From Mogibacterium sp. (GTDB lineage: Bacteria; Bacillota; Clostridia; Peptostreptococcales; Anaerovoracaceae), in NCBI GenBank assembly GCA_017505405.1, contig JAFVPI010000094.1:1-33044 (forward strand): DNA of 33,044 nt. The letters run 5' to 3'. Below, piece after piece: positions 14,591 through 25,810 of the stretch (positions within the stretch are counted from its first letter, which is position 1; each line of letters starts with the position of its first letter). Made by a program: the position numbers and the translations under genes. Under the pieces are notes generated by a model, which did not search any database, was not told the origin of the DNA, and saw only the letters and a list, made by a program, of their open reading frames with translations.

Positions 14591-14637
14591 GATAATCGCC
14601 TTTTTTGCTCATCTCCAATTTCTATGTATATAAAAAT

Positions 14638-14691
14638 ATCAAATATTTGGGTAAGAAAAAAGACGCGGATGCCTTTGCATCAACGTCTTTT
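14638..14691 (-). terminator. Terminator within a dispersed repeat (copy 1)
   Basis: AAAAGACG (14658-14665) and CGTCTTTT (14684-14691) form the outer stem with an inner ATGC/GCAT, and on the minus strand a T6 run follows, closing the MBL/reductase gene that ends at 14719. Bases 14638-14669 match 24165-24196 at 28 of 32 positions. Confidence 0.75.
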
Positions 14692-14718: not shown

Positions 14719-16560
14719 CTAATTCCCGTATTTTCTATGCAGTTCGTCCCATGACGGCATCATGCCTCGCAATCTGTTCCAGACTTCAAGCTTTTCCTCA
14801 GGATAATCCTTCAGAAGGTCCTCATAGAAAGCATCGATCTGTTCCATTTCCGATACGGCATTCCGGCAATGCTCACATGCGATAAGATCTCCTATCCTGG
14901 ACTTGGACATGATGAGATAAAGCAGCTTCATCAGCCTCCCCCTTGCCCCGTTTTCGTAGAACTTATCATCCCCTTCAGGATAGATTGTGATCCCTTTTGC
15001 TTTCAGCGCTTCGAATGCTTCATGCGACGCATCCACCATCATCCTGCGCTGTTCTTTTGTGGAGCTGCGAAGATCGCCGTCACATATGTATGAAAGGTAC
15101 CCGATCGGCAGTATAGCTGCAGGGTGGCAGATGAGATAAGCTTCCATATCGTCCTGCCAGTTCAGCTTATATGAAGTGCCTTCAAACAATTTCTCCGTCC
15201 GGTCCTTCAGCTCCGGATCGGTCTTGCCATGCAGCCGGCCAATGTCCATGTAGCTTCCGCCGAAACGTTCGCACACATAATGATCTGTTTCCTTTTTGCC
15301 TCCCGACACCTGGAATCCAAACAAGATCTTTTCGATTCCGGGAGCTTTTCTCAGATCCTCTTCGATCTCTGCCGGCGCAAGGTCGTTGCCTACCAGTACA
15401 AGAAGCTTTGTATTAAGCTGCCTGATCTGCGGAAGAGCCTGCCGTATCTTATGGAAAGGCATCACCACAAAAGCTGCATCAAAGGAGCGCCCCGATACAT
15501 CCGTTACAGCCTCAACTGTATCTTTAGTTGTTATTCGCTGAAGATGGTGTTTTATGACAAGTCCGTTCTGACTCAGCGACTTCGCTCTTTCTTCTCTTGC
15601 AAGGATCGTAACTTCATTTCCTGCCTGGATCAGTACATGCGCCAGATAAGCTCCGATTACGCCTGCACCAAAGAGCAGCACCTTGCGCTTCTCTGCATCA
15701 TTCACGGAAACCAGCGGATTAGTTCTTGCACCTTCTTCCGTATCGTCGCTCTCATCGTACCCGTCGTATGGTGCTGAAGGGTCATGAGGCTTCTGCTTCC
15801 TCAGGCTATTGCAGACCTGATTTCGATGAGCGAAAGCAAAGTCCATATCCTGCGACCATCCTGTATGTCCCGTGATGATCTTAGGTGACAGGCCGCGTTC
15901 TCTCAGGATCTTTTCCAGTTTCTCCAGTGACTGCTTCGCCAGATCATTGTCCTCCGCAAGAGAATTGATGAAGCTGTATCCCCCATCAGGGCCAAACCAG
16001 ATCGTGTCACCGGTAAACAGATAAGCGTCATCGATCAGATAAACCATGTGTCCCCAGGTGTGTCCCGGTACCATGATCGCTTCTACTCGGATGTCCCCGA
16101 TCTGAAAGACCTCCCCGTCCTGCAGTAGCACCTTCTTATTATCTGTCTCCACCATCGGAAGCCTGTAAGTCCCGAATACAACTTTGCGGCGGACCTCTCC
16201 GGTCATATATCTGTTCTCGACTTCACTCAGGTAAATTGTTGCATGCCTGAAAAGCCCATCTGAGTCGCGTTCCACAGCCCCGACATGGTCTGTATCCTGA
16301 TGAGTAATGAGGATGTGCTGAACAGAAGCCGGATCGATTTCCAGCCAGCGCATCTTTTCTGCGAGCCTGTCATAGTTGTATCCGGCATCGATCATGATCG
16401 TAGTCCCGTTTTTGGTGTAAAAGAAAATGTTGGCGATCCATTCGCGGATACACGCCGTATGCTCATCTATCCACCCGGTATTAAGCGGCTTGAATATTTC
16501 CTTGCCACGGTATCCCAGGCTCATTACCTTCTTTTGAAACTGTGATGCTTTTTTTGACAT
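14719..16560 (-). CDS. Fusion of MBL-fold hydrolase and ketopantoate-reductase-like domain
   Basis: The 613-residue protein joins two enzymes. Residues 1-250 are a metallo-beta-lactamase-fold hydrolase: THQDTDHVGA (H87, D89, D91, H92, with Asp where the second His of HxHxDH is usual), PGHTWGH (H167), TGDTIWFG (D185) and TGHTGW (H232). An acidic linker (260-280) leads to a ketopantoate-reductase/ApbA-like Rossmann domain with GAGVIG at 298-303 and a helical C-terminal domain. Each half is of normal length. I do not recall this architecture as common. AGGAGG lies 5 bases before the ATG. The substrate is unknown; the fusion suggests linked hydrolysis and NAD(P)H-dependent redox steps. Confidence 0.8.
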   Translation of the reverse strand: MSKKASQFQKKVMSLGYRGKEIFKPLNTGWIDEHTACIREWIANIFFYTKNGTTIMIDAGYNYDRLAEKMRWLEIDPASVQHILITHQDTDHVGAVERDSDGLFRHATIYLSEVENRYMTGEVRRKVVFGTYRLPMVETDNKKVLLQDGEVFQIGDIRVEAIMVPGHTWGHMVYLIDDAYLFTGDTIWFGPDGGYSFINSLAEDNDLAKQSLEKLEKILRERGLSPKIITGHTGWSQDMDFAFAHRNQVCNSLRKQKPHDPSAPYDGYDESDDTEEGARTNPLVSVNDAEKRKVLLFGAGVIGAYLAHVLIQAGNEVTILAREERAKSLSQNGLVIKHHLQRITTKDTVEAVTDVSGRSFDAAFVVMPFHKIRQALPQIRQLNTKLLVLVGNDLAPAEIEEDLRKAPGIEKILFGFQVSGGKKETDHYVCERFGGSYMDIGRLHGKTDPELKDRTEKLFEGTSYKLNWQDDMEAYLICHPAAILPIGYLSYICDGDLRSSTKEQRRMMVDASHEAFEALKAKGITIYPEGDDKFYENGARGRLMKLLYLIMSKSRIGDLIACEHCRNAVSEMEQIDAFYEDLLKDYPEEKLEVWNRLRGMMPSWDELHRKYGN

Positions 16561-16574
16561 ATTTTCCTCCTAAT

Positions 16575-17618
16575 TCAGGCTCCGGTTTTTCGGCCGATAC
16601 ACACATAAGTAAATGGCGTGATCAGTCTCGAACAAATATGATCAAACCCGGCCTTCCGCAACATCTCTTCCATTTCTGCTCTGGAGTAAACTGCATGGTC
16701 TCCGGTTGGCAATTTTGTAAACCACCAGTTCATAAATCTCCGAAGAAGCTTCGGCCCGGTCAGCTCATTGATCAGGACCGTTCCGTTATTCTCCAGAATA
16801 CGGTACATCTCAGCCAGGGATTTCTCCGGATGCGGGTGATGATGTATGCTCATATGACAGCTGACCGCATCAAAGGTACCGGCTGCAAACGGCATGTTTT
16901 CAGCGTCTCCCTCCACGATATCCGCCTCCGGTATCCGCTGTCTGCTTTGCGCCACCATCTCACTGGAGAGATCCATTCCTGACAGTTTTATGCCTGGAAC
17001 AGCTTTATGGATCATAGCCAGAAAAGCACCGTTCCCGCAGCCGATATCGATCAGGTTTTTCACGTTTCGTCTCATCAGGATCTTTGATGTGATCCGATAG
17101 TCATAACTCCAGTACCCATTCCGATTTATAATGGTATTGGAATGTCTGTTGAAATAGGATCTGGATTTCTGTTTGTCATCCATTCCCGTATCCTCCAGCA
17201 GCCTGAGCCATTTCCTCTGCCTTTGTGCATAGAACAGATTTGCCCACATCCACACAAATACCGTCTTCCGGCCGGCGTGGATCTCAACCCTGTCTGTATA
17301 CTGCGTATGGTCATCATCCAGACTCACCAGTTTAATATCGTGATTCCAGACCGGGACATGCTCATTACCTTCCCGGCTGCTGATTCCCGTCTGATCGAAC
17401 CGGATGATCCGGATCGTATGAGTGCCATAGGGAATGATGCCAAAGAGCCGGAAGCGATAGGATGATTCTCCCTCTTCTTCCCATACAGCCGCAGTATCCC
17501 CGATCGGTTCAAATGTGGCAAACGGCCTGGCGATATATTGCAGCGTCTCCAGCTTTTGCAGTTTTTCAAATATGGTCTTTCTCGAAGCCGGAAAGACCGA
17601 TGTTTTCTGTACGATCAT
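16575..17618 (-). CDS. SRPBCC-like domain fused to SAM-dependent methyltransferase
   Basis: The 347-residue protein has an N-terminal domain of about 145 residues (MIVQKTSVFPASRKTIFEKL, then strands ending YTDRVEIHAG) with the shape of SRPBCC/polyketide-cyclase-like ligand-binding proteins. The second domain is a class I methyltransferase: motif I LIDIGCGNG (189-197), GMDLSSEM, GDAENMPF and CHMSIHHHPHPE. The N-terminal domain may hold a hydrophobic substrate. ATG 17618 has AAAGGGAG 5 bases upstream; the alternative ATG at 17633 lies within that site. It ends 14 bases before the MBL/reductase gene, so they are likely co-transcribed. Confidence 0.75.
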   Translation of the reverse strand: MIVQKTSVFPASRKTIFEKLQKLETLQYIARPFATFEPIGDTAAVWEEEGESSYRFRLFGIIPYGTHTIRIIRFDQTGISSREGNEHVPVWNHDIKLVSLDDDHTQYTDRVEIHAGRKTVFVWMWANLFYAQRQRKWLRLLEDTGMDDKQKSRSYFNRHSNTIINRNGYWSYDYRITSKILMRRNVKNLIDIGCGNGAFLAMIHKAVPGIKLSGMDLSSEMVAQSRQRIPEADIVEGDAENMPFAAGTFDAVSCHMSIHHHPHPEKSLAEMYRILENNGTVLINELTGPKLLRRFMNWWFTKLPTGDHAVYSRAEMEEMLRKAGFDHICSRLITPFTYVCIGRKTGA

Positions 17619-17652
17619 GGTGCTCCCTTTCATGTTGTCTTAATGTCCTGCT

Positions 17653-17907
17653 TTAAACAGCCGTGACATCTGTATATCCGGCATCCTTTAGCTCGAGACA
17701 CATTGCCATGACAGCATAGACGAAAGAAACATTTGTCGATGGATAGATATTATGAGTTTCAAACTCCTTGGAGTTGTACATCTCCCTAAGCCTCGTCTCA
17801 TACGACATCATTCGTTGATCAACGTTCTCTATCCCTTCGCCCAATAAAACATTTCTGTAATACTTGGAATATGATTTAAGATTCTTTTTTAATTCTTTAT
17901 TGTTCAT
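17653..17907 (-). CDS. Small hypothetical protein, possibly a truncated ATC-hydrolase relative
   Basis: The 84-residue frame starts at ATG 17907 after AGGG. It is helical (KELKKNLKSYSKYYRNVL) with NIYPSTNVSFVYAVMAMCLE near the end, and finishes abruptly at DVTAV. The YP...VYAVxAMCLELK pattern reminds me of the N-terminal half of some ATC-hydrolase-like proteins, and the next gene upstream belongs to that family, so this could be a truncated neighbour. That is a weak inference; it could equally be an intact orphan. Confidence 0.4.
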   Translation of the reverse strand: MNNKELKKNLKSYSKYYRNVLLGEGIENVDQRMMSYETRLREMYNSKEFETHNIYPSTNVSFVYAVMAMCLELKDAGYTDVTAV

Positions 17908-18007
17908 ATTTCCCTAGTCTGTCTTTTATTTATTTCCATATTGTATAGTCTCTCTCGAAGAGTTCTTCACTGATCTTCACATCTTCACTTCCTTAACTCA
18001 TTGGAAA

Positions 18008-18640
18008 CTATCTTTTTCGCTTATACCCGCAGTCGCAGTATGGACCGCCAGACGCTAAAGTATATTCTCTTACAAACTCTGATGCGCCTCCAGCTTCTTC
18101 CATAGCATAGTCCAGGCGACACATTGCAGGCACAAGATCAAACAGACCGTATTCTTTCATGAGAGTGCAGATTCCGCACCTGGTGAATCTGGCCTCGTAG
18201 CCGCTCCCGTCTTTGTATTCGTAGAATTCCATGTTCCAGGAATACGGATTCCTGTCAGCGGCGTTCAAGGCAGCAGTTTGTTTCATGCCTTTTATATCTG
18301 CAGCTGTGAATTTGTTCTTTCCCATGAATCTGAAGAATGCCTTTGCCGGTTTGATCATCATTGACTTCTCATAATAATCAGCAAGCATTTCCACTGACGG
18401 ACGATCCGGCATATTCAAGGTGAACGCGATGAGCATCGCGCAGCTAACGATATTCATCTTGAAACGGTCTTCCTTCTCAAACTCAGGAAGCTTATCTATG
18501 ATGCTTTTGTATTTCCATTTAGCCTTTTTGGCTACTTCATCAGCCGTTTCCTGATCACATCCCATGATAGATACGAGTTTATCCCTGAATGATTTTTCAT
18601 ATAGATACCACATGCCCATCGGCATTCCCGAATAATTCAT
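18008..18640 (-). CDS. L-2-amino-thiazoline-4-carboxylic acid hydrolase family protein
   Basis: The 210-residue protein ends in the family's signature block: CGICTLMKEYGLFDLVPAMC, then LDYAMEEAGGASEFVREYTL and GGPYCDCGYKRK, with the conserved Cys, Asp and CDCGY motif. Named members open the thiazoline ring of ATC on the way to cysteine, but the family is broad and many copies in Clostridia sit beside methyltransferase or transport genes with no known substrate. AAGGAG lies 5 bases before the ATG. It lies 78 bases downstream of a methyltransferase gene in the same direction. The 100 bases downstream show no gene. Confidence 0.75.
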   Translation of the reverse strand: MNYSGMPMGMWYLYEKSFRDKLVSIMGCDQETADEVAKKAKWKYKSIIDKLPEFEKEDRFKMNIVSCAMLIAFTLNMPDRPSVEMLADYYEKSMMIKPAKAFFRFMGKNKFTAADIKGMKQTAALNAADRNPYSWNMEFYEYKDGSGYEARFTRCGICTLMKEYGLFDLVPAMCRLDYAMEEAGGASEFVREYTLASGGPYCDCGYKRKR

Positions 18641-18718
18641 TTTGTCTCCTTAACAGTAGCGATCATCGTAACTTTATCATCGAATTCGGATCAAAATCTG
18701 CTCTGTACTCAATCTTGT

Positions 18719-19564
18719 CTACTTCCTGCAGCAGAAGCAGCCTATCCCCTCTACCACAGTTATTTTCACTTCACTATACATGTTTTCAAGACGTTTTCTC
18801 AGGCTCTCTTCTGTTTCGTATGGCGGCGTGAAGAAACCTTTGGGCTGATACAGATTTTTAATGAACCAATCCGTTCTGCTGCATCCTCCTTTGATATAGA
18901 AGCATCCGCAGAATACGCCGCCGTCCTTGAGCACTCTGAATGTCTCTGCATATGCAGCTTCTTTATCAGGAAAAGCATGAAAGCCATTGAGTGAGAGAAC
19001 TATGTCAAAGCTATTGTCTTCAAACGGAAGGTTTCCTACGTCTCCCTGAACGAAAGTAACGTTATGTATTCCGGCAGTCTCAGCTTTCTCCTTTGCGGCC
19101 GCCATCATGTCTGCTGAGTAATCAAGGCATGTAATGTCTGCATCCGGAAGTTCCTTGTATACAGGCATGCTAAGGACTCCGGTCCCTACCGGCACCTCCA
19201 GTATCCTTCCGCTGTAGTTTTCAGGGATCCCCGAGAAAGCTGTCTCAATGTATCGCAGATTCTTTTCCGCGTCCATATTCCATATAACGCGGCATATGAC
19301 TTTGCCCGGAATTGTGGAATATGTCATCATGCCATCATAGAAGCTTGCATGTCCTCCGGTGACTTTATACGCGCTTCTGATCCGTTCCTTTCTTGAGGGT
19401 TCAGCAGTACCTGCGCTCCCATCCGGTTCCCGGATCAGATCATACATGAATGACTTTTCTCCATTTTCAGTCTTTTTACCTCTGGTGCACTCCGCGTATA
19501 CTATCGCGATGCGAGCCGACATCTCCTTGCTGAAGGTAACACGCCATCCGTTCCTCTTCTCCAT
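18719..19564 (-). CDS. Class I SAM-dependent methyltransferase
   Basis: The 281-residue protein has motif I ILEVPVGTGVL (121-131, with EVPVGTG in place of the usual DxGxG), CLDYSADMM, GDVGNLPFEDNSFDIV and LRVLKDGG-like FRVLKDGGVF. Starting at ATG 19564 it adds about 39 residues before the domain. ATG 19447 (MYDLIREPDG), with GGAGAA 9 bases upstream, is a credible alternative. ATG 19564 begins one base after the stop of the double methyltransferase, suggesting coupled translation. A cysteine pair near the C-terminus (GCFCCRK) is notable. The methyl acceptor is unknown. Confidence 0.8.
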   Translation of the reverse strand: MEKRNGWRVTFSKEMSARIAIVYAECTRGKKTENGEKSFMYDLIREPDGSAGTAEPSRKERIRSAYKVTGGHASFYDGMMTYSTIPGKVICRVIWNMDAEKNLRYIETAFSGIPENYSGRILEVPVGTGVLSMPVYKELPDADITCLDYSADMMAAAKEKAETAGIHNVTFVQGDVGNLPFEDNSFDIVLSLNGFHAFPDKEAAYAETFRVLKDGGVFCGCFYIKGGCSRTDWFIKNLYQPKGFFTPPYETEESLRKRLENMYSEVKITVVEGIGCFCCRK

Positions 19565-19565
19565 T

Positions 19566-21011
19566 CTATTTAACGCCTCTAAGTATTGTGGATCCTCTGA
19601 GCATCATCTTAGTCGCTTCCAGCTTTGACATGAACAGCCCATCATCTGTATGGATCAGTTCAACTTCCCGGTACCCCTCGTCACGTAGCTCCTGCGCAAA
19701 GCGTTCCATGTCTCCGTACCTCATTTTTGACATCAGATCATGTATCGCGAAGGTGCCGCCTTTCTTAAGGACCCTAAGTGTCTCTCTGAGCAGTTTCTGC
19801 TTATCCACTCCGGATATGTTGTGATATACATAATTGCTCGTAACTGCATCAAATGTCTCGTCCGGAAAATCAAGATGCACCGCATCGCCTTTTTCAAAGG
19901 AAACATTTGAAACACCTTCTGCCTCAGCATTACGCTCACACAAAACTTTGCTGAATGACGCATATTCTGCACCCCAGCGGTCTATGCCAACCATAGTCGC
20001 CTGAGAATTTCTCTTGGCACAGGCGATCGTAAGGGCCCCACTGCCGCAGCCAACATCGAGTCCTACTCCTCCTTCAGGAATAGTGACATATTCCGCGGTT
20101 CCTTCAACGATAACCTTTGACAGCTTGCGCTCTCCGTCATATGAAAAATTGCGGTTAGCCATTATGCACCATTCTGTCATTTTGGCGCATCCAACAAAGC
20201 CTAGTCCGAGCGCTGCCTGTATCGCTGTTTTAACCTTGCCGCTCTCATATCTGAGCAATGCTGCCGCACCGATATTAGCCACAGCGAGCGCTGCTGTCCC
20301 GGCGCACATTCCTGTGATCATCCCCTGAGGGACCCAGTTCTTATAGTCAGGTTTTAGAGTTTTAGTTATCTCTGTCTTCGCCGCTTCTCCTTTTTCCGCT
20401 ATCACTGTGATCCATGGCTTGCTGTCATGATGATATGTCGTGACACGGTCGAAGCCGGCTGTCTTAAGGGCACTCTCGATCTCTTCAGGTGTGTAGATCT
20501 TCATCCCTTCGATGATCTTCTCATATTGCTTCGAAGGGCCATCCGCACCGTCTGATTCATTGACTATCATAAAGGTGCCATCAGGTCCTAGTATCCTCGC
20601 GACCTCACTGAAGCACTTTTCCAGACCCGGCCAGAAATAAACAGTCTCAAATGCTGTAGCAAGATCAAAGCTGCCATCAGAAAAATCTGTTGCAGAAACA
20701 TCTCCCTGCACGATCTTGCATCTGCCGCTGCTGATCAGGCTGCTGTTGAGCACCCTGGCCCTCTCCACCGAAAGATCTGAATAATCAAGGCCTGTCACCA
20801 TAGCTCCCGCATATCTTTCAGCTAGTGCCTTTACATTTCTTCCTCCGCCGCATCCCAGGTCGATGACATTGACAGGATCCTTGACTCTTAGGTAGTCTGT
20901 TCCCCATTTCGCCATTGCCGCATGTCCGGTATTCATCCCTGTTATCATCAAATTGCCAAGAACTCCCTCAGGCTTCCTTGTCTGGTTCATGTACTTTTTT
21001 ATGAGTCCCAT
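19566..21011 (-). CDS. Tandem methyltransferase: two class I MTase domains joined by two membrane helices
   Basis: The 481-residue protein contains two complete methyltransferases. Domain 1 (about 1-210): NQTRKPEG, MNTGHAAMAKWG, motif I DLGCGGG (51-57) and FETVYFWPGLEKCF. A linker (about 231-280) carries two hydrophobic helices (TAALAVANIGAAALL and TAIQAALGLGFVGC). Domain 2 (about 285-481): NRNFSYDGERKLSK, motif I DVGCGSG (319-325), SNYVYHNISG and RVLKKGGTFAIHD. From family knowledge, each half resembles a separate Firmicutes methyltransferase family, the second normally having its own N-terminal helices, so this looks like a fusion of two genes. It is probably anchored to the membrane with both domains in the cytoplasm. 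Confidence 0.85.
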   Translation of the reverse strand: MGLIKKYMNQTRKPEGVLGNLMITGMNTGHAAMAKWGTDYLRVKDPVNVIDLGCGGGRNVKALAERYAGAMVTGLDYSDLSVERARVLNSSLISSGRCKIVQGDVSATDFSDGSFDLATAFETVYFWPGLEKCFSEVARILGPDGTFMIVNESDGADGPSKQYEKIIEGMKIYTPEEIESALKTAGFDRVTTYHHDSKPWITVIAEKGEAAKTEITKTLKPDYKNWVPQGMITGMCAGTAALAVANIGAAALLRYESGKVKTAIQAALGLGFVGCAKMTEWCIMANRNFSYDGERKLSKVIVEGTAEYVTIPEGGVGLDVGCGSGALTIACAKRNSQATMVGIDRWGAEYASFSKVLCERNAEAEGVSNVSFEKGDAVHLDFPDETFDAVTSNYVYHNISGVDKQKLLRETLRVLKKGGTFAIHDLMSKMRYGDMERFAQELRDEGYREVELIHTDDGLFMSKLEATKMMLRGSTILRGVK

Positions 21012-21021
21012 ACATTCCTCC

Positions 21022-21585
21022 TTACTTTTCCAGTCCAGACATCTTTGCTGTCAGATTGGAAATGATCACCGATGCTATGATCCCGATGGTTACAACTACA
21101 GGCAGAGCCCAGGCAGGACTGACTGCCATCAGGGTGTCGCCATATCCTGCACGCATCTCCTCTATTGCAGCCTCATACGTAAAATCGCGGTTGAACCAGA
21201 TCTGACCGTAATAACCAAATGATGAGAAACTCATGATCGCAGTGCTGATCACATCGCCTTTCCAGCTGTATTTCGATACAGCACGCACGATCTCCGCAGC
21301 AATAGCGATGCCGATGACAGGGATCACATGCCATGCTGCGGCATCTTTGATTACCACAAGCAGAATAAGCATGCCGAGCGCGAGGCATACAGCCACACCC
21401 GGTGCTTTTACCCTTGCAAACGCACGTATGATGATTCCCGAAAGCAGTATCCCTGCAGTTATCTGATAGCATACGAACAGGACAGGATGTATCGCTCCCG
21501 TCACACATACTATTGCAGTCCCTGCAGCATACAGCACTGCATAAAGGATCATCCATTTCGCATTACTTTTGTTCCAATTGTTCAT
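21022..21585 (-). CDS. Integral membrane protein, MptD/Trep_Strep-like (putative ECF S component)
   Basis: The 187-residue protein has five or six hydrophobic segments. The RAFARVKAPGVAV loop, the WHVIPVIGIAIAAEIVRA helix and a YGQIWFNRD stretch before the last helix resemble the MptD/Trep_Strep family, annotated as possible substrate-binding (S) components of ECF transporters. No EcfA or EcfT genes are nearby, so a shared module elsewhere would be needed. I chose ATG 21585, 10 bases after GGAGG; in-frame ATGs at 21594 and 21633 are possible. It is the first gene after the promoter at 21648-21676 and precedes the tandem methyltransferase by 10 bases. Confidence 0.55.
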   Translation of the reverse strand: MNNWNKSNAKWMILYAVLYAAGTAIVCVTGAIHPVLFVCYQITAGILLSGIIIRAFARVKAPGVAVCLALGMLILLVVIKDAAAWHVIPVIGIAIAAEIVRAVSKYSWKGDVISTAIMSFSSFGYYGQIWFNRDFTYEAAIEEMRAGYGDTLMAVSPAWALPVVVTIGIIASVIISNLTAKMSGLEK

Positions 21586-21647
21586 GATAAGCATTCCTCC
21601 ATTATTCACATTCAGTAGATCTGTGATGCTCATCCCTCTTTCTATAT

Positions 21648-21676
21648 ATGTTAGACTCAACTAACTCATTTGTCAA
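21648..21676 (-). promoter_or_regulatory. Sigma-A promoter for the MptD-like/methyltransferase operon
   Basis: On the minus strand, TTGACA (21676-21671) and TAACAT (21653-21648) are separated by exactly 17 bases. Transcription would start near 21641 and run into the MptD-like gene, the tandem methyltransferase and probably on to the genes further left. Confidence 0.8.
21650..21665. promoter_or_regulatory. Candidate repressor operator GTTAG-N6-CTAAC, copy 1
   Basis: GTTAG and CTAAC flank six bases (ACTCAA) inside the promoter spacer and overlap the -10. The half sites are identical to copy 2 while the centre differs, as expected for a dimer-bound operator. A bound protein here would block RNA polymerase. 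No regulator gene is in the window. Confidence 0.65.
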
Positions 21677-21683
21677 AAGAATT

Positions 21684-21701
21684 GCTCCCTTTCCGAGGAG
21701 C
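21684..21701 (-). terminator. Hairpin ending the upstream unit, just before promoter copy 1
   Basis: GCTCC (21684-21688) pairs with GGAGC (21697-21701); on the minus strand TTCTTTT follows. It likely ends transcripts from the LCM methyltransferase/membrane gene pair, immediately before the next promoter. Its T-run overlaps the -35 region. Confidence 0.55.
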
Positions 21702-21707
21702 ACTTTT

Positions 21708-21734
21708 GGGGTATCGATGTCATCGATTTACCCC
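21708..21734. repeat. Inverted repeat at the 3' end of the small membrane gene
   Basis: GGGGTA...TACCCC encloses TCGATG...CATCGA with a 2-base bulge, and the core ATCGATG-T-CATCGAT (21713-21727) is perfectly symmetrical. It overlaps the stop codon of the membrane gene. It may stabilise the transcript end or assist the terminator at 21684-21701. Confidence 0.5.
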
Positions 21735-22132
21735 TTGATCTTATATCCTCTGAACAACAGTCCGGCAAACACTGCGCACAGCGTCGCACCACCACCCATG
21801 AATAACTTTTTACTCTTACCTGATTTTGTCATGGCTGATGCGGCAATGCCTGTAATGCCGCCGAGAGTCAGGGCACCAAAACCTCTGTACAGTCGAGCTT
21901 TAGGAAGCTCACGGTCAAGCCCTTCTATCCTCTCACTGATCAGTTCTGCAACACCTGTGATCATAAGAGCTGCCGGAGCTGCTGAGACTGCAGCGCTCCC
22001 ATATTCTCTGTCCCTGATCATTTTTGCCAGCATTGCAAGATAAGTCATCCACCCTATATTCCCCGGGACATCGTATGCCATCCATCTGGCATCAGATATT
22101 TCGGTTTTGTAAATAGATTTCTCAAGTCTCAT
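21728..22132 (-). CDS. Small membrane protein of unknown function
   Basis: The 134-residue protein begins with a charged segment (MRLEKSIYKTEISDARWMAY) and has hydrophobic stretches around NIGWMTYLAMLAKM, GSAAVSAAPAALMITGVAEL, RGFGALTLGGITGIAASAM and KLFMGGGATLCAVFAGLLF, so three to four membrane segments and a basic C-terminal tail. I do not recognise a family. It lies 75 bases downstream of the LCM-type methyltransferase and probably shares the transcript from the promoter at 23046-23074. The ribosome binding site (GAGAG) is modest. Confidence 0.65.
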   Translation of the reverse strand: MRLEKSIYKTEISDARWMAYDVPGNIGWMTYLAMLAKMIRDREYGSAAVSAAPAALMITGVAELISERIEGLDRELPKARLYRGFGALTLGGITGIAASAMTKSGKSKKLFMGGGATLCAVFAGLLFRGYKIKG

Positions 22133-22207
22133 AATTTACTCTCTTTCCATTTACAGAATCACTACCATGATTGCTGCCAGCGCATCTGTATATCCAATTT
22201 AGTTGTG

Positions 22208-22987
22208 TCACCACTTGTATATCGCGAGTCTGTTATTGAGATTCCTGCCTATGATCGCAAACAGCTTACCGCGGATAGTATGTTTTTTCATTTCCTCGTT
22301 GTAGCTGGTCTCTGATATCATCGTCATTCGCGGCTCAAGTTCAAGATACTCTTCTCCGGATTTTGTGCCCCACCCGAATGATGCATTTGTATACTTGACT
22401 GCATCATGATGTTTAGAGTTCTTTGCCATGAACGGCGCATGCAGTTCTGCAAGCAGATAACCATGTGTGAAGGAATCACAGAGCATATTTAGACAAGTCT
22501 TCACCTGCTCTTTGGAGAAGTATTCCAGGACACCTTCCATGACTATGATGTACATATCTGATTCAGGTATATTCTTCGTCCATGAGCCATCCAGAGCATC
22601 GCCATCCATCATGATGCATCGCTCTCTGTCCTCGAAGACTTTTCTCCTGACCGCGATCTGATCAGCAAGATCAACGTCATACCATCTTATCTTTCCGTTA
22701 TCTACCTGCGGGAACTTGTCGTCAAACCCACATCCGAGATTGATGCACACAGCATCAGGATATTGCGCGATAAGCTTTTTCAGTGCTTCCCTGTACATGA
22801 TAGTTCTTGCAACCACTCCTTCGTGGGACATGAACGGGTCATATTTACTTACATCGACACCAAGTGTATCTATTATTTTCTTCGCCATCGGATCACTGAT
22901 CCTGGCATCAGGTCTTGATGTTTCGCTTGCACGTATGGCAAGAGTGATAAGTGCAGTCTCCTGAACATCTCCGAATTTAAGGTCCAT
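22208..22987 (-). CDS. Leucine carboxyl methyltransferase (LCM/PPM) family methyltransferase
   Basis: The 259-residue protein opens with the family pattern VQETALITLAIRASETSRPD and has ISDPMAKKIID, motif I NLGCGFDDKF (83-92), WYDVDLADQI, and MEGVLEYFSKEQVK. These fit PF04072-type methyltransferases, which in eukaryotes and fungi methylate protein or peptide carboxylates and in bacteria often modify small molecules or polyketides. The acceptor is unknown. ATG 22987 has GGAGG 6 bases upstream. The frame is open to 23125, but that region is the promoter leader, so the shorter start is right. It is the first gene after the second copy of the duplicated promoter. Confidence 0.85.
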   Translation of the reverse strand: MDLKFGDVQETALITLAIRASETSRPDARISDPMAKKIIDTLGVDVSKYDPFMSHEGVVARTIMYREALKKLIAQYPDAVCINLGCGFDDKFPQVDNGKIRWYDVDLADQIAVRRKVFEDRERCIMMDGDALDGSWTKNIPESDMYIIVMEGVLEYFSKEQVKTCLNMLCDSFTHGYLLAELHAPFMAKNSKHHDAVKYTNASFGWGTKSGEEYLELEPRMTMISETSYNEEMKKHTIRGKLFAIIGRNLNNRLAIYKW

Positions 22988-23045
22988 ATTTTTCCTCCAT
23001 TGTTTATTTTCATTGAGTCTGTGATGCTCATCCCTCTTTCTATAT

Positions 23046-23074
23046 ATGTTAGTCTTCTCTAACTCATTTGTCAA
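23046..23074 (-). promoter_or_regulatory. Sigma-A promoter for the LCM methyltransferase unit
   Basis: TTGACA (23074-23069) and TAACAT (23051-23046) on the minus strand are 17 bases apart, identical to the promoter at 21648-21676. Transcription would begin near 23039 and read the LCM methyltransferase and the small membrane gene. Confidence 0.8.
23048..23063. promoter_or_regulatory. Candidate repressor operator GTTAG-N6-CTAAC, copy 2
   Basis: GTTAG-TCTTCT-CTAAC lies in the promoter spacer at the same place as copy 1. Complete divergence of the central six bases beside perfect half sites argues for selection on the half sites. Confidence 0.65.
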
Positions 23075-23081
23075 AAGAAAT

Positions 23082-23097
23082 GCTCCCTTTCGGGAGC
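23082..23097 (-). terminator. Hairpin preceding promoter copy 2
   Basis: GCTCCC (23082-23087) and GGGAGC (23092-23097) form a tight 6-base stem with a 4-base loop; ATTTCTTTT follows on the minus strand. It may end transcripts of the Bro-N gene, whose stop is at 23251. The stretch 23098-23250 shows no gene. Confidence 0.6.
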
Positions 23098-23250
23098 GAT
23101 TCCTAAAGTCATCTTTCTTATTCATTATATTTTCTCAGTATACATACCCCTTCTGTATGCGTCGTCCTGGATAGAAAAAACTTTTCGGACCGGGCAGAGG
23201 TATATGGAAAGAATACAGTTTCATGAGGCATTTTTAATTGCATTGTATAA

Positions 23251-24129
23251 TTATTCAGTATCTTCCATGTCTGGATTTGCTACCGCCTCAATGAGATCAG
23301 TTACTACACTATTGAGCTGAACCGCATTCTGTGAAGTTATCACAGGTCTGCCTGTACGGTCTTCGATCTCTTTTCTGGCATTACCTGCCACCGTCCCTCC
23401 TGCATTTGCGACATGCAAATTTTCCTCAAGACCTTCCGGGTTTTCAACTTTAGTCAACTCTGTGGTTGTGGCTTCCGCAAGCATATTAAGAGCCAGCTCA
23501 AGCGTGCTCATATTATCTCTGAGGTTTTCTTTCCTGAGTCCCTTCAGATTCTTATACTGTCTGGTGCTCATTCCAGACCAGGCTCTTGTAACTTCATCAG
23601 TCAGGATCGCAAACTCTCTGCCCTTTTCTATACCATGTGATTTCCACTGGTCGGTCAGTTCTTTCCTTGCCCTGATAGTCTGAAGTCTCTGATTGATCCA
23701 GTCTTCAGGATATCCCAGTCTAGCATAGGTCTCCAATGCTCGCTCAATGGACAACTCCGGATCAATAGTTTCTTCTATGCGTTCGCGTCCAACCTGTGCA
23801 AGCCAAAGCTTGAACGGCTCCGCTTTCTTCGATGGAATCGATTGAACAAGCCTTAAAAGCTGCTCAGTAGTTGCAACATCAGTCATACGCCGCTTGCCAT
23901 CTGTAGCTTTCAATCTCAACTGCTTACAATTTGTAAGCAGTTGATCAGCACCCTCATCTTTTAATCTTTTCTTCAGAACTGCCCAATATGTGCTCGCATG
24001 TCTTGAGTCCGGTTGCTCAGTCAGAGCCGCAATAACATCAACAATTGAAAAATACCATTCTTCATGTTCCTCATCCCATGCCGTTCTGATCGGCTGGTCT
24101 TCGAATAGTTTGATTTTGTCCTGATCCAT
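23251..24129 (-). CDS. Bro-N domain protein, DinD/phage-antirepressor-like
   Basis: The 292-residue protein has an N-terminal Bro-N domain: IRTAWDEEHEEWYFSIVDVI, then DSRHASTYWAVLKKRL, the LRLKATDGKRRMTDVATTEQ turn and FKLWLAQVGRERIEE. The C-terminal part (LTDQWKSHGIEKGREFAILT onward) resembles DinD. Bro-N proteins bind DNA and are common in phages, while stand-alone chromosomal copies are frequent in Clostridia with no settled role. No other phage genes lie nearby. ATG 24129 is preferred (GGAGA about 10 bases upstream) over ATG 24144. The DinD name refers to a damage-induced E. coli gene, but no clear LexA box is visible here. Confidence 0.8.
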   Translation of the reverse strand: MDQDKIKLFEDQPIRTAWDEEHEEWYFSIVDVIAALTEQPDSRHASTYWAVLKKRLKDEGADQLLTNCKQLRLKATDGKRRMTDVATTEQLLRLVQSIPSKKAEPFKLWLAQVGRERIEETIDPELSIERALETYARLGYPEDWINQRLQTIRARKELTDQWKSHGIEKGREFAILTDEVTRAWSGMSTRQYKNLKGLRKENLRDNMSTLELALNMLAEATTTELTKVENPEGLEENLHVANAGGTVAGNARKEIEDRTGRPVITSQNAVQLNSVVTDLIEAVANPDMEDTE

Positions 24130-24164
24130 AATACTCGTCTCCATTATCTTTACATACTAAGATT

Positions 24165-24210
24165 ATCAAATATTCGTACAAGAAAAAAGACGCGGAAGCT
24201 TCCACGTCTT
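24165..24210 (-). terminator. Terminator within a dispersed repeat (copy 2)
   Basis: AAGACG (24187-24192) and CGTCTT (24205-24210) flank the perfect GGAAGCTTCC inner stem (24194-24203), with a T6 run on the minus strand at 24188-24183. It probably ends the long operon whose last gene stops at 24365. The 5' side matches copy 1 at 14638-14669. Confidence 0.75.
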
Positions 24211-24290
24211 GCTTTTCTTTGGGCTGATTATATATCATTATTTCGTTTTTTCAACCACATTACTGTGAAGATTTCATCTGCCGATATGAT

Positions 24291-24337
24291 TTGTATTCTC
24301 CATTGTCGACAATGTCGGTATCAAGCTAAGAATACAA
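24291..24337. repeat. Nested inverted repeat upstream of the Bro-N gene
   Basis: TTGTATTCT (24291-24299) and AGAATACAA (24329-24337) are perfect 9-base arms enclosing CATTGTCGACAATG (24301-24314), a perfect 14-base palindrome. It lies between the RlmD-like gene (stop 24365) and the Bro-N gene. It could be an operator, a cruciform-forming site or part of a transcript end. No T-run follows directly. Confidence 0.55.
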
Positions 24338-24364
24338 TTTGAGAAATCCCACAAATTTCAATGC

Positions 24365-25810
24365 TTACAGCCTCTTCATGAGAGCTGTCACCTCACAATG
24401 TGATGTCCACGGGAACTGGTCCACTGGGGTGGCTTCTATGAATTCATATCCATTTGAAGTAAGGTATCTGATATCACGGGCGAGCGTGCCGGGATCGCAT
24501 GATACATACACTATGCGATCGGGTGCAGCCTGCACCACTGCGGCGAGCAGAGGCTCGGCGCAGCCGGCACGCGGCGGATCAAGCACCGCCACGTCTGCGT
24601 GCTCCAGTCTGATCTCAGGCTCCCGTTCTACTCTCTCATTTACCTCATTCCATTTATAGAGTTTTGCCAGCCCCATCATGCCGGGGAGTTCTTCCTCAGC
24701 TTTGCCGCAAATATATCTTGTGTTTATCACTCCGTTTATAACAGAGTTCCTGTTGGCATCAAGGATCGCCGGTCTGACCGATTCTATCCCGATGACCCGG
24801 GTCTTTTCGAAAGCCTCGATATCCTTATTTCTAAGGTCCTCAAGCAGCCACAGCCCTATGGTACCCGCACCGCAGTAGAGATCAAGTACAGTCTCTCCGC
24901 CTCTGAGGTCCGCATATTCCGCAGCTTTGTCGTAAAGACGCTCCATCTGCTCCGGGTTCACCTGATAGAATGACTGCGGGCTTATCTCAAACGTAAGGCT
25001 GCGGCCATCATCCGTTATCACCTCTTCATTGATCGTCGGCTTGCCTGCGATTATATGACACTTACCCTTATGGATGACCGCAACTGACTCCAGACTGTAT
25101 GCCTGTGTGTCTGCAGGATCCCCCTCTTCGTCAAGGCTCAGACTGTATACTGCATCGTCAAACATTTCCACAAGTTTTTCGATCTGCGGTATCTCTTTGC
25201 TTTCTGCCTCAAGCACCGCCATGACCTCGCCTGTCCCGAATGCTGTCTTTACTGTCAGCTGAGTTATGCCCCTTATGCCGGTCTCTTTAAGAAACACCCG
25301 CAATGCATCTGCACATACCATTGCCGCATCGGACTGGAGCAGGCAGTCTTCAATGTCCATCACATAATGCGTCTTTCCCTTCAGGAATCCGACTTCTCCA
25401 TGAGGGCCGACAGCGAAAACCGCCTTGTTTCTGTAGTACTTCAGCGTGCAGGCTCCAATGATAGCATTTACCTTCGGATCATCCAGCCCGCCTAATCTCT
25501 TAAGCTTTGCCCTTACCTGCTCTTCCTTGAGTTTCTTCTGAGCTTCATAGGACAGCTCCTGCATCGTGCATCCGCCGCAGCTGCCTGCATAAGGACATTC
25601 CGCATGGATCCTGTCAGGCGAAGCTGCAGTGATCTCTGTCAATACGGCCTCTGCTGAAGACTTCTTCGCCTTGGCCACCCTGGCCTTTACTTTATCTCCC
25701 GGAACTGCGCCGCCGCTCACAAAAACGGCACAGCCCTCATATCTTCCGAAGGCCCTGCCGTCATCGAGCATATCTTCTATTTTGAGTTCGATTATCTGAT
25801 TCTTTTCCAT
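24365..25810 (-). CDS. rlmD: 23S rRNA (uracil-5-)-methyltransferase, RlmD/TrmA family
   Basis: The 481-residue protein has an N-terminal TRAM domain (about 1-62), a 4Fe-4S site C72-x5-C78-x2-C81 (ECPYAGSCGGC) with C156 as likely fourth ligand, and a C-terminal methyltransferase with LDLYCGAGTIGLWL, DPPRAGC and the catalytic SCDPGTLARD cysteine. The family makes 5-methyluridine in rRNA (U747/U1939 in E. coli numbering) or tRNA, and the exact uridine cannot be read from sequence. A C in SCDP forms the covalent RNA adduct in known members. The gene follows whiA by 19 bases and closes the operon. Confidence 0.88.
   Translation of the reverse strand: MEKNQIIELKIEDMLDDGRAFGRYEGCAVFVSGGAVPGDKVKARVAKAKKSSAEAVLTEITAASPDRIHAECPYAGSCGGCTMQELSYEAQKKLKEEQVRAKLKRLGGLDDPKVNAIIGACTLKYYRNKAVFAVGPHGEVGFLKGKTHYVMDIEDCLLQSDAAMVCADALRVFLKETGIRGITQLTVKTAFGTGEVMAVLEAESKEIPQIEKLVEMFDDAVYSLSLDEEGDPADTQAYSLESVAVIHKGKCHIIAGKPTINEEVITDDGRSLTFEISPQSFYQVNPEQMERLYDKAAEYADLRGGETVLDLYCGAGTIGLWLLEDLRNKDIEAFEKTRVIGIESVRPAILDANRNSVINGVINTRYICGKAEEELPGMMGLAKLYKWNEVNERVEREPEIRLEHADVAVLDPPRAGCAEPLLAAVVQAAPDRIVYVSCDPGTLARDIRYLTSNGYEFIEATPVDQFPWTSHCEVTALMKRL

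Follow-up and report, generated by a model that had tools for sequence, protein, structure and literature searches.

The IdeR/DtxR box of Actinobacteria is a sequence of 19 bp, TTAGGTTAGSCTAACCTAA, for which a one-dimer consensus, TTAGGNNNNCCTAA, has been proposed (PMC8464063); according to the account of IdeR in PMC10317159, the boxes of repressed genes overlap the −10 element or the start, the primary-site metal ligands are Met10 and Cys102, and low-GC Gram-positive bacteria mostly use Fur for iron. This type of system is compared here with a stretch of DNA from Mogibacterium sp. (assembly GCA_017505405.1, contig JAFVPI010000094.1, positions 1–33,044; the whole analyzed stretch of 33,044 nt is referred to as the window), in which two promoters, upstream of an MptD-type gene followed by a tandem methyltransferase gene (promoter A) and of an LCM-family methyltransferase gene (promoter B), share the inverted repeat GTTAG-N6-CTAAC. 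Comparison of sequences makes it very probable that the iron-responsive DtxR-family repressor of the lineage has this box as its operator, and that both window units belong to its regulon.

The likeness to the actinobacterial box lies in the TTAG-N6-CTAA spacing, the overlap with the −10 element and the iron targets (PMC8464063, PMC10317159), and the genome encodes a protein with the regulator domains, has the one-dimer spacing at both window sites and carries the box at its own feoAB operon. Nevertheless, the window sites are single 16-mers without a second overlapped pair, so that no 19-bp two-dimer box is formed; the host is a clostridium instead of an actinobacterium, and its DtxR-family protein lacks the SH3-like domain and has mixed metal ligands. 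The window promoters probably work like an IdeR/DtxR regulon, as a known type with variant features.

The duplicated promoter cassette

Both units are transcribed leftward, and their promoters lie within a direct repeat of 100 nt with 87% identity and a spacing of 1398 (cassette copy A, 21594–21693; copy B, 22992–23091; both on the minus strand), the longest listed for the window. Each copy, with the parts in the same order, reads on the minus strand from the 3′ arm of a hairpin through a T-rich tail into TTGACA, followed by five bases, GTTAG-N6-CTAAC, AT, a common leader, the ribosome site GGAGGA and the start codon. The putative operators, GTTAGTTGAGTCTAAC in copy A (21650–21665, minus strand) and GTTAGAGAAGACTAAC in copy B (23048–23063, minus strand), are exact matches and are situated in the spacer of sigma-70-type promoters, TTGACA-17-TAACAT (promoter A, 21648–21676; promoter B, 23046–23074; both minus strand, with 10/12 matches each in the promoter scan), overlapping the −10 element. 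Upstream of each promoter there is an intrinsic-terminator-like hairpin, one at the end of the LCM unit (21683–21702, minus strand; −10.5 kcal/mol, z −3.2), with a T-rich tail that reaches the −35 element, and the other upstream of promoter B (23082–23097, minus strand; −12.7 kcal/mol, z −5.0), and either one closes with its own partner arm.

Between 21620–21701 and its counterpart, the two copies differ at four of the six bases of the operator centre, at position 21682 and at five bases within 21694–21701, the last five lying in the 5′ arm and loop of the hairpin. A preliminary description of this DNA had already recognized two promoter copies, here delimited as the 100-nt direct repeat, and had placed GTTAG-N6-CTAAC within TTGACA-17-TAACAT, exactly as found in both copies on the minus strand. 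It had also given identical runs of 35 and 20 bases and a difference restricted to the six-base centre; the first run is of 35 bases and the centre does differ, although the second run is of 21 bases and the differences extend to the further positions listed above.

Regarding an RNA leader, no RNA family reached the gathering threshold in the Rfam search of window positions 16000–25000. A leader peptide starting in GAGGGATGAGC was also considered and dropped, because it has no spaced ribosome site and shares the frame of MptD but not that of LCM (by eye).

Recurrence of the box and its neighbours

Within the window alone, two matches are unremarkable, being reached in 11 of 100 shuffles when one mismatch is allowed, and promoter-like sites show no excess (5 versus 4.7 in shuffles). 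In the whole assembly, 6 exact boxes were found and none of a reversed control pattern, and 35 other genomes of the same genus contained 104 exact boxes versus 29 for the reversed control; this excess is concentrated in the genus. The genome search for GTTAG-N6-CTAAC that the preliminary description had suggested showed that the box recurs between genes, 31 of the 33 exact sites (from 29 loci, each of a different genome) being intergenic, although the non-coding share of these loci is 17%. On the reversed, permuted half-site and layout controls, a chance origin of the box was rejected. The whole promoter element occurs in two copies in the genome, which rules it out as a scattered repeat and leaves no place for the many non-promoter copies that, in the preliminary description, would have spoken against regulation.

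The strongest recurrence was observed upstream of feoB, an anchor picked independently of the motif, with a match in 45 of the 47 genus genomes, of which the best 30 loci were used. With at most one mismatch the box is present upstream of feoB in all 30 of these best genus loci, and exactly in 10 of them, whereas 29 permuted half-site pairs, with one mismatch allowed and over the whole feoB loci, were found on average in 2.7 and at most in 8 of the 30. Among 4096 tetramer dyads in the 650 bases upstream of feoB, GTTA-N8-TAAC ranked first (23/30) and TTAG-N6-CTAA second (19/30, tied with one unrelated dyad), and these are two readings of the same box. A position weight matrix from the feo sites of 29 other genomes scored the window sites at 19.1 bits (copy B, rank 1 in the window) and 17.1 bits (copy A, rank 2), compared with 13.9 bits for the best of thirty simulated windows, although the training sites were picked by the same motif and the half-site scores are therefore partly circular, which does not apply to the position upstream of feoB. 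In this matrix, in contrast to the actinobacterial box, conservation covers the outer G and C but not the inner ones.

The feo boxes mostly occur in groups of two or three, approximately 19–21 bp apart, the further ones often with one or two mismatches (L045–L074), and their centre is more constrained; in the feoAB promoter of the Mogibacterium genome a TATAAC −10 element lies inside the operator. The free centre of the window operators may be explained by its location in the promoter spacer. The single boxes at the window promoters and at the mptD promoters shown, compared with two or three at feo, perhaps point to a graded response.

The cassette itself is also found in relatives. Complete with its leader, it stands before the tandem methyltransferase gene of three genomes (G013, G014 and G035) and before the LCM gene of G007; in a looser version it stands before the tandem methyltransferase gene of G021 and, in both G014 and G035, before a hydrolase-LCM pair; all were found through the motif, except that of G007, which was found by the LCM protein. 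In these promoters the half-sites are fixed and the centres differ, save that G013 and G014 are equal. The conserved half-sites, the free centre and the dimeric repressor put forward in the preliminary description are supported by these data, the dimer as a probable feature. A recent neutral duplication of the promoter, with a palindrome that serves no regulator, would account for the two genomic copies of the whole element and for two window matches that alone can be chance. This explanation is extremely improbable, since the LCM gene of G007 has this cassette too, its half-sites intact but its centre different, the four promoters of G013, G014, G035 and G021, found via the motif, vary in the centre as well, and the box recurs upstream of feoB.

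The exact layout TTGACA-N5-GTTAG-N6-CTAAC-AT was detected at 20 places in the genus, with none for the control, and a scan of 84,980 named genomes, run without a reversed control, returned at least 118 stretches. Of 80 hit titles, many belong to clostridia such as Lachnospiraceae, Oscillospiraceae and Erysipelotrichaceae; a few come from unrelated phyla and may be chance. Among the 118 matches listed, feoA or feoB lies within 3 kb downstream in 58, a TetR gene of the kind found beside ATP-binding cassette (ABC) pairs in 9, DUF3793 in 5, an LCM methyltransferase in 4 and a YbtPQ-like ABC gene in 4; within 3 kb on the other side, dtxR was found in 17, TetR in 1 and feo in 0. Some stretches end short of 3 kb, so these neighbour counts are lower bounds.

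These neighbours bear on the TetR- or MarR-type repressor that had been proposed in the preliminary description as the protein binding the palindrome, together with a search for such a gene carrying the same site. A TetR gene with an exact box upstream does exist (L008:3471–4118), it could be autoregulated, and TetR genes of this kind follow the layout in the nine matches mentioned above. However, it heads an ABC operon that represents one target among several, and it is the weaker candidate; downstream of the layout feo is found most often, on the other side dtxR is far more frequent than TetR, and TTAG-N6-CTAA is a geometry published for the DtxR family (PMC8464063). Control by a TetR or MarR protein is, in consequence, very unlikely, and the evidence favours a metalloregulator of the DtxR/IdeR type.

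The four other exact boxes of the Mogibacterium genome precede feoA-feoB, the TetR-ABC-ABC operon, a MacB-like ABC operon and guaBA (the IMP dehydrogenase/GMP synthase pair, with a MATE gene on the far side of the box); among these neighbours, TetR and one ABC protein were profile-scanned and the rest were named by sequence. An exact box near the IMP dehydrogenase start, with GMP synthase where seen, was observed in the Mogibacterium genome (L009:615–630) and in several others of the genus (L019, L022, L028, L032, L138 and L139), an unexpected target for an iron regulon. The box before the MacB-like operon is kept in four genomes (L007:5001, L130:5595, L136:3996, L137:4839), and two of these have a small gene upstream that looks MarR-like by eye. 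In another locus (L132:2837–7472), boxes immediately precede the genes of two proteins, one matching a Shr-like heme-binding domain and the other containing three FMN-binding stretches; these may be targets connected with heme or electron transfer.

The candidate regulator

The best candidate for the repressor is a DtxR-family protein of 132 amino acids (aa) encoded at L011:1267–1665 on the minus strand, with both DtxR domains over the cut-off (Fe_dep_repress, PF01325, 52.8 bits; Fe_dep_repr_C, PF02742, 60.3 bits) and, at this length, no third, SH3-like domain. The N-terminal DtxR model has three matches in the genome, and only this one is a two-domain DtxR, the other two being GntR- and BirA-like by sequence. 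Fur was rejected as the regulator, since PF01475 has no match in the genome (G000, 95% complete), whereas the same search was positive in 13 of 14 control genomes. In G129, from another genus of the same family, a DtxR homologue with 64% identity is encoded divergently from feoAB, with two boxes between them. G068, of the same genus, and G072, of the same family, likewise have boxes separating feoAB from a dtxR gene, here a more distantly related one, and in G061 dtxR is downstream of feoB.

The identity of the metal is less clear-cut. Iron is likely, and manganese is the main rival. In its two-domain length and in its best sequence matches in the PDB set (MntR of Bacillus subtilis and Escherichia coli), the protein resembles MntR, and the best-scoring NCBIfam models are those of MntR, with scores under the cut-off. 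At the IdeR ligand positions it has Asp9 in place of Met10, a residue of the MntR type, and Cys100 at the position of Cys102 (PMC10317159). A ZIP-like gene, named by sequence, also ends beside the box of L008. A manganese-sensing protein of the MntR type, with a manganese or mixed-metal regulon, is nonetheless unlikely, because feoB is the most constant neighbour of the box and feo its commonest target, Cys100 replaces the glutamate ligand of MntR, in the DtxR homologues encoded next to feo the Met and the Cys of IdeR are both present, and no Fur was found in the genome to run iron.

In addition to the partial circularity of the matrix scores and to the large layout scan having been run without its control, several results weigh against an iron-responsive DtxR repressor at the box. 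The protein has the MntR-like Asp9, and the nearest NCBIfam model, MntR, is reached only below its cut-off (103.1 of 153 bits). No box adjoins the dtxR gene of the genome. Even with one mismatch allowed, a box is present in 0 of the 30 genus dtxR loci examined, a set that does not include G061 and G068, and at the level of the order an exact box is missing from 21 of 29 dtxR loci. The excess of boxes hardly exists in 24 order-level genomes (54 versus 47 for the control), the exact layout is confined to 10 of the 47 genus genomes, and 37 of the 118 layout matches listed have none of the seed families within 3 kb downstream. Moreover, neither guaBA nor MacB is, by its name, an iron gene, and 10 of the 17 LCM homologue loci other than that of the window are without an exact box. 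In the literature search, no title on a clostridial DtxR box was found, and neither the letters of the box nor DUF3793 combined with iron matched a paper.

The genes behind the two promoters and the proposed iron switch

The first gene behind promoter A (21022–21585, minus strand) encodes a putative energy-coupling factor (ECF) transporter S component of the MptD/Trep_Strep family with 187 aa, its start, like that of the LCM gene, being chosen by the ribosome site, in this case GGAGGA. As a 212-aa frame it reaches 76.4 bits with Pfam PF09605 (cut-off 28.7) and 26.2 with NCBIfam TIGR02185 (cut-off 76.45), and it has no match in PDB up to E 0.1; the name MptD-like, given in the preliminary description, was appropriate in the sense of this S-component family (Pfam Trep_Strep). 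By position, promoter A would drive MptD and, behind it on the same strand, the tandem S-adenosylmethionine (SAM) methyltransferase of 481 aa (19566–21011), whose same-cluster gene bears the cassette itself in G013, G014 and G035, a second SAM methyltransferase of 281 aa (18719–19564), probably in the same unit as MptD, and an ATC_hydrolase family protein (PF14196; 18008–18640). Further along the minus strand are located an 84-aa protein without a family match (17653–17907), with one homologue near the boxed cluster of G014, a SAM methyltransferase with no family match in its N-terminal half (16575–17633) and a protein that combines a metallo-beta-lactamase fold with a ketopantoate-reductase-like part (14719–16560), with homologues in the boxed clusters of G013, G014 and G035; the last two are presumably members of the unit.

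Promoter B would drive, also by position, the LCM-family methyltransferase of 259 aa (22208–22987, minus strand), which scores over the cut-off with PF04072 (33.9 bits, 305-aa frame) and gives a weak match only in PDB (E 0.0034), and a 134-aa protein without a family match as the second gene (21728–22132, minus strand). LCM homologues are present in 14 of the 47 genus genomes, that of the window included, and the 17 other loci have an exact box in 7, a box with one mismatch in 1 and no box in 9. In G035 the LCM methyltransferase makes up the C-terminal portion of a longer open frame of 822 aa (L125:12353–14821). Outside these units, a second direct repeat of 42 nt with 83% identity (14631–14672 and 24158–24199) lies between same-strand genes and is perhaps terminator-like.

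No homologue of the window MptD was detected in the remaining 46 genomes of the genus, and in the order, MptD homologues occur in 20 of 198 genomes, the one studied here included. Of the 25 loci of these homologues besides that of the window, 6 have an exact box, compared with a mean of 0.03 for permuted half-sites, and in 5 it immediately precedes the start of mptD (G088 twice, G112, G156 and G217). MptD-type genes carry the putative operator in other genera too. In four of these five loci (L198–L201), mptD is followed by an ECF-ATPase-like ABC gene, a gene of approximately 320–360 aa and an ABC pair, with a T-component-like gene in L199 and L201; in L201 the MptD protein scores above the NCBIfam cut-off (139.3 versus 76.45). 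The 320–360-aa gene of L201 (L201:4893–5861), the one of the four that was scanned, encodes an AraC-type regulator, placed in this mptD operon after the ECF-ATPase-like gene and before the ABC pair. In the simplest history, MptD would have been inserted, in the window lineage, between an older cassette and the tandem methyltransferase gene. The related clusters of G013, G014, G021 and G035 contain boxes together with members of these same families, and those of G014, G021 and G035 include between them P-type ATPase, DUF3793, ZIP transporter and ABC genes, which fits metal handling.

MtsR belongs to the DtxR family, and the mptDEF genes of Mycobacterium avium ssp. paratuberculosis are presumably the namesake of the MptD family. 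The siaA-H genes of Streptococcus pyogenes (siaD and siaE, ABC; siaFGH, ECF S, T and A components) are listed in the MtsR-regulon section of PMC6593403 beside heme-uptake genes, and resemble the MptD loci in the combination of an ECF S component and ABC genes in the context of MtsR, although the window MptD stands with methyltransferases and neither a T nor an A component follows. In mptABC/mptDEF, as described in PMC4298942 and PMC4132290, IrtAB-like ABC genes likewise adjoin a second predicted transporter under metal regulation; however, mptABC is regulated by zinc and FurB and uninduced by iron starvation, while the window box points to DtxR and iron.

The following switch can be proposed for the two promoters, which would be copies of one cassette made up of terminator arm, promoter, operator and leader. 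When Fe(II) is sufficient, a metal-loaded DtxR dimer would occupy GTTAG-N6-CTAAC in both promoters, with one half-site five bases after the −35 element and the other overlapping the −10 element (CTAAC shares TAAC with TAACAT), so that RNA polymerase would be excluded and both units shut. When iron is scarce, the repressor would be released, and the MptD/tandem-methyltransferase and LCM units would be expressed together with feoAB, the TetR-ABC-ABC operon and others. From the sequences we infer the binding, the repression, the transcript starts and iron as the metal. The co-regulation of both units in one regulon, as envisaged in the preliminary description, is thereby supported, and the regulon, with feoAB and others, looks like an iron one. 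It is possible, as a tentative suggestion, that besides Feo, DtxR controls a small-molecule pathway that makes, or modifies during uptake, a methylated metallophore or a tetrapyrrole-type iron carrier, for which the parts might be the several SAM methyltransferases, the LCM methyltransferase, the ATC-hydrolase-like protein, the metallo-beta-lactamase/ketopantoate-reductase fusion and MptD, with the TetR-ABC-ABC transporter elsewhere in the genome, and that MptD and the ABC pair import the carrier.

An anonymous palindrome becomes in this way a probable iron switch, and the operator as defined here can be used to scan other clostridia. The data argue that a DtxR-type protein fills, at least in this genome, the role that is usually that of Fur, and they provide a physiological hint for the transporters of the MptD family and for the methyltransferase cluster, whose function may be sought under iron limitation.

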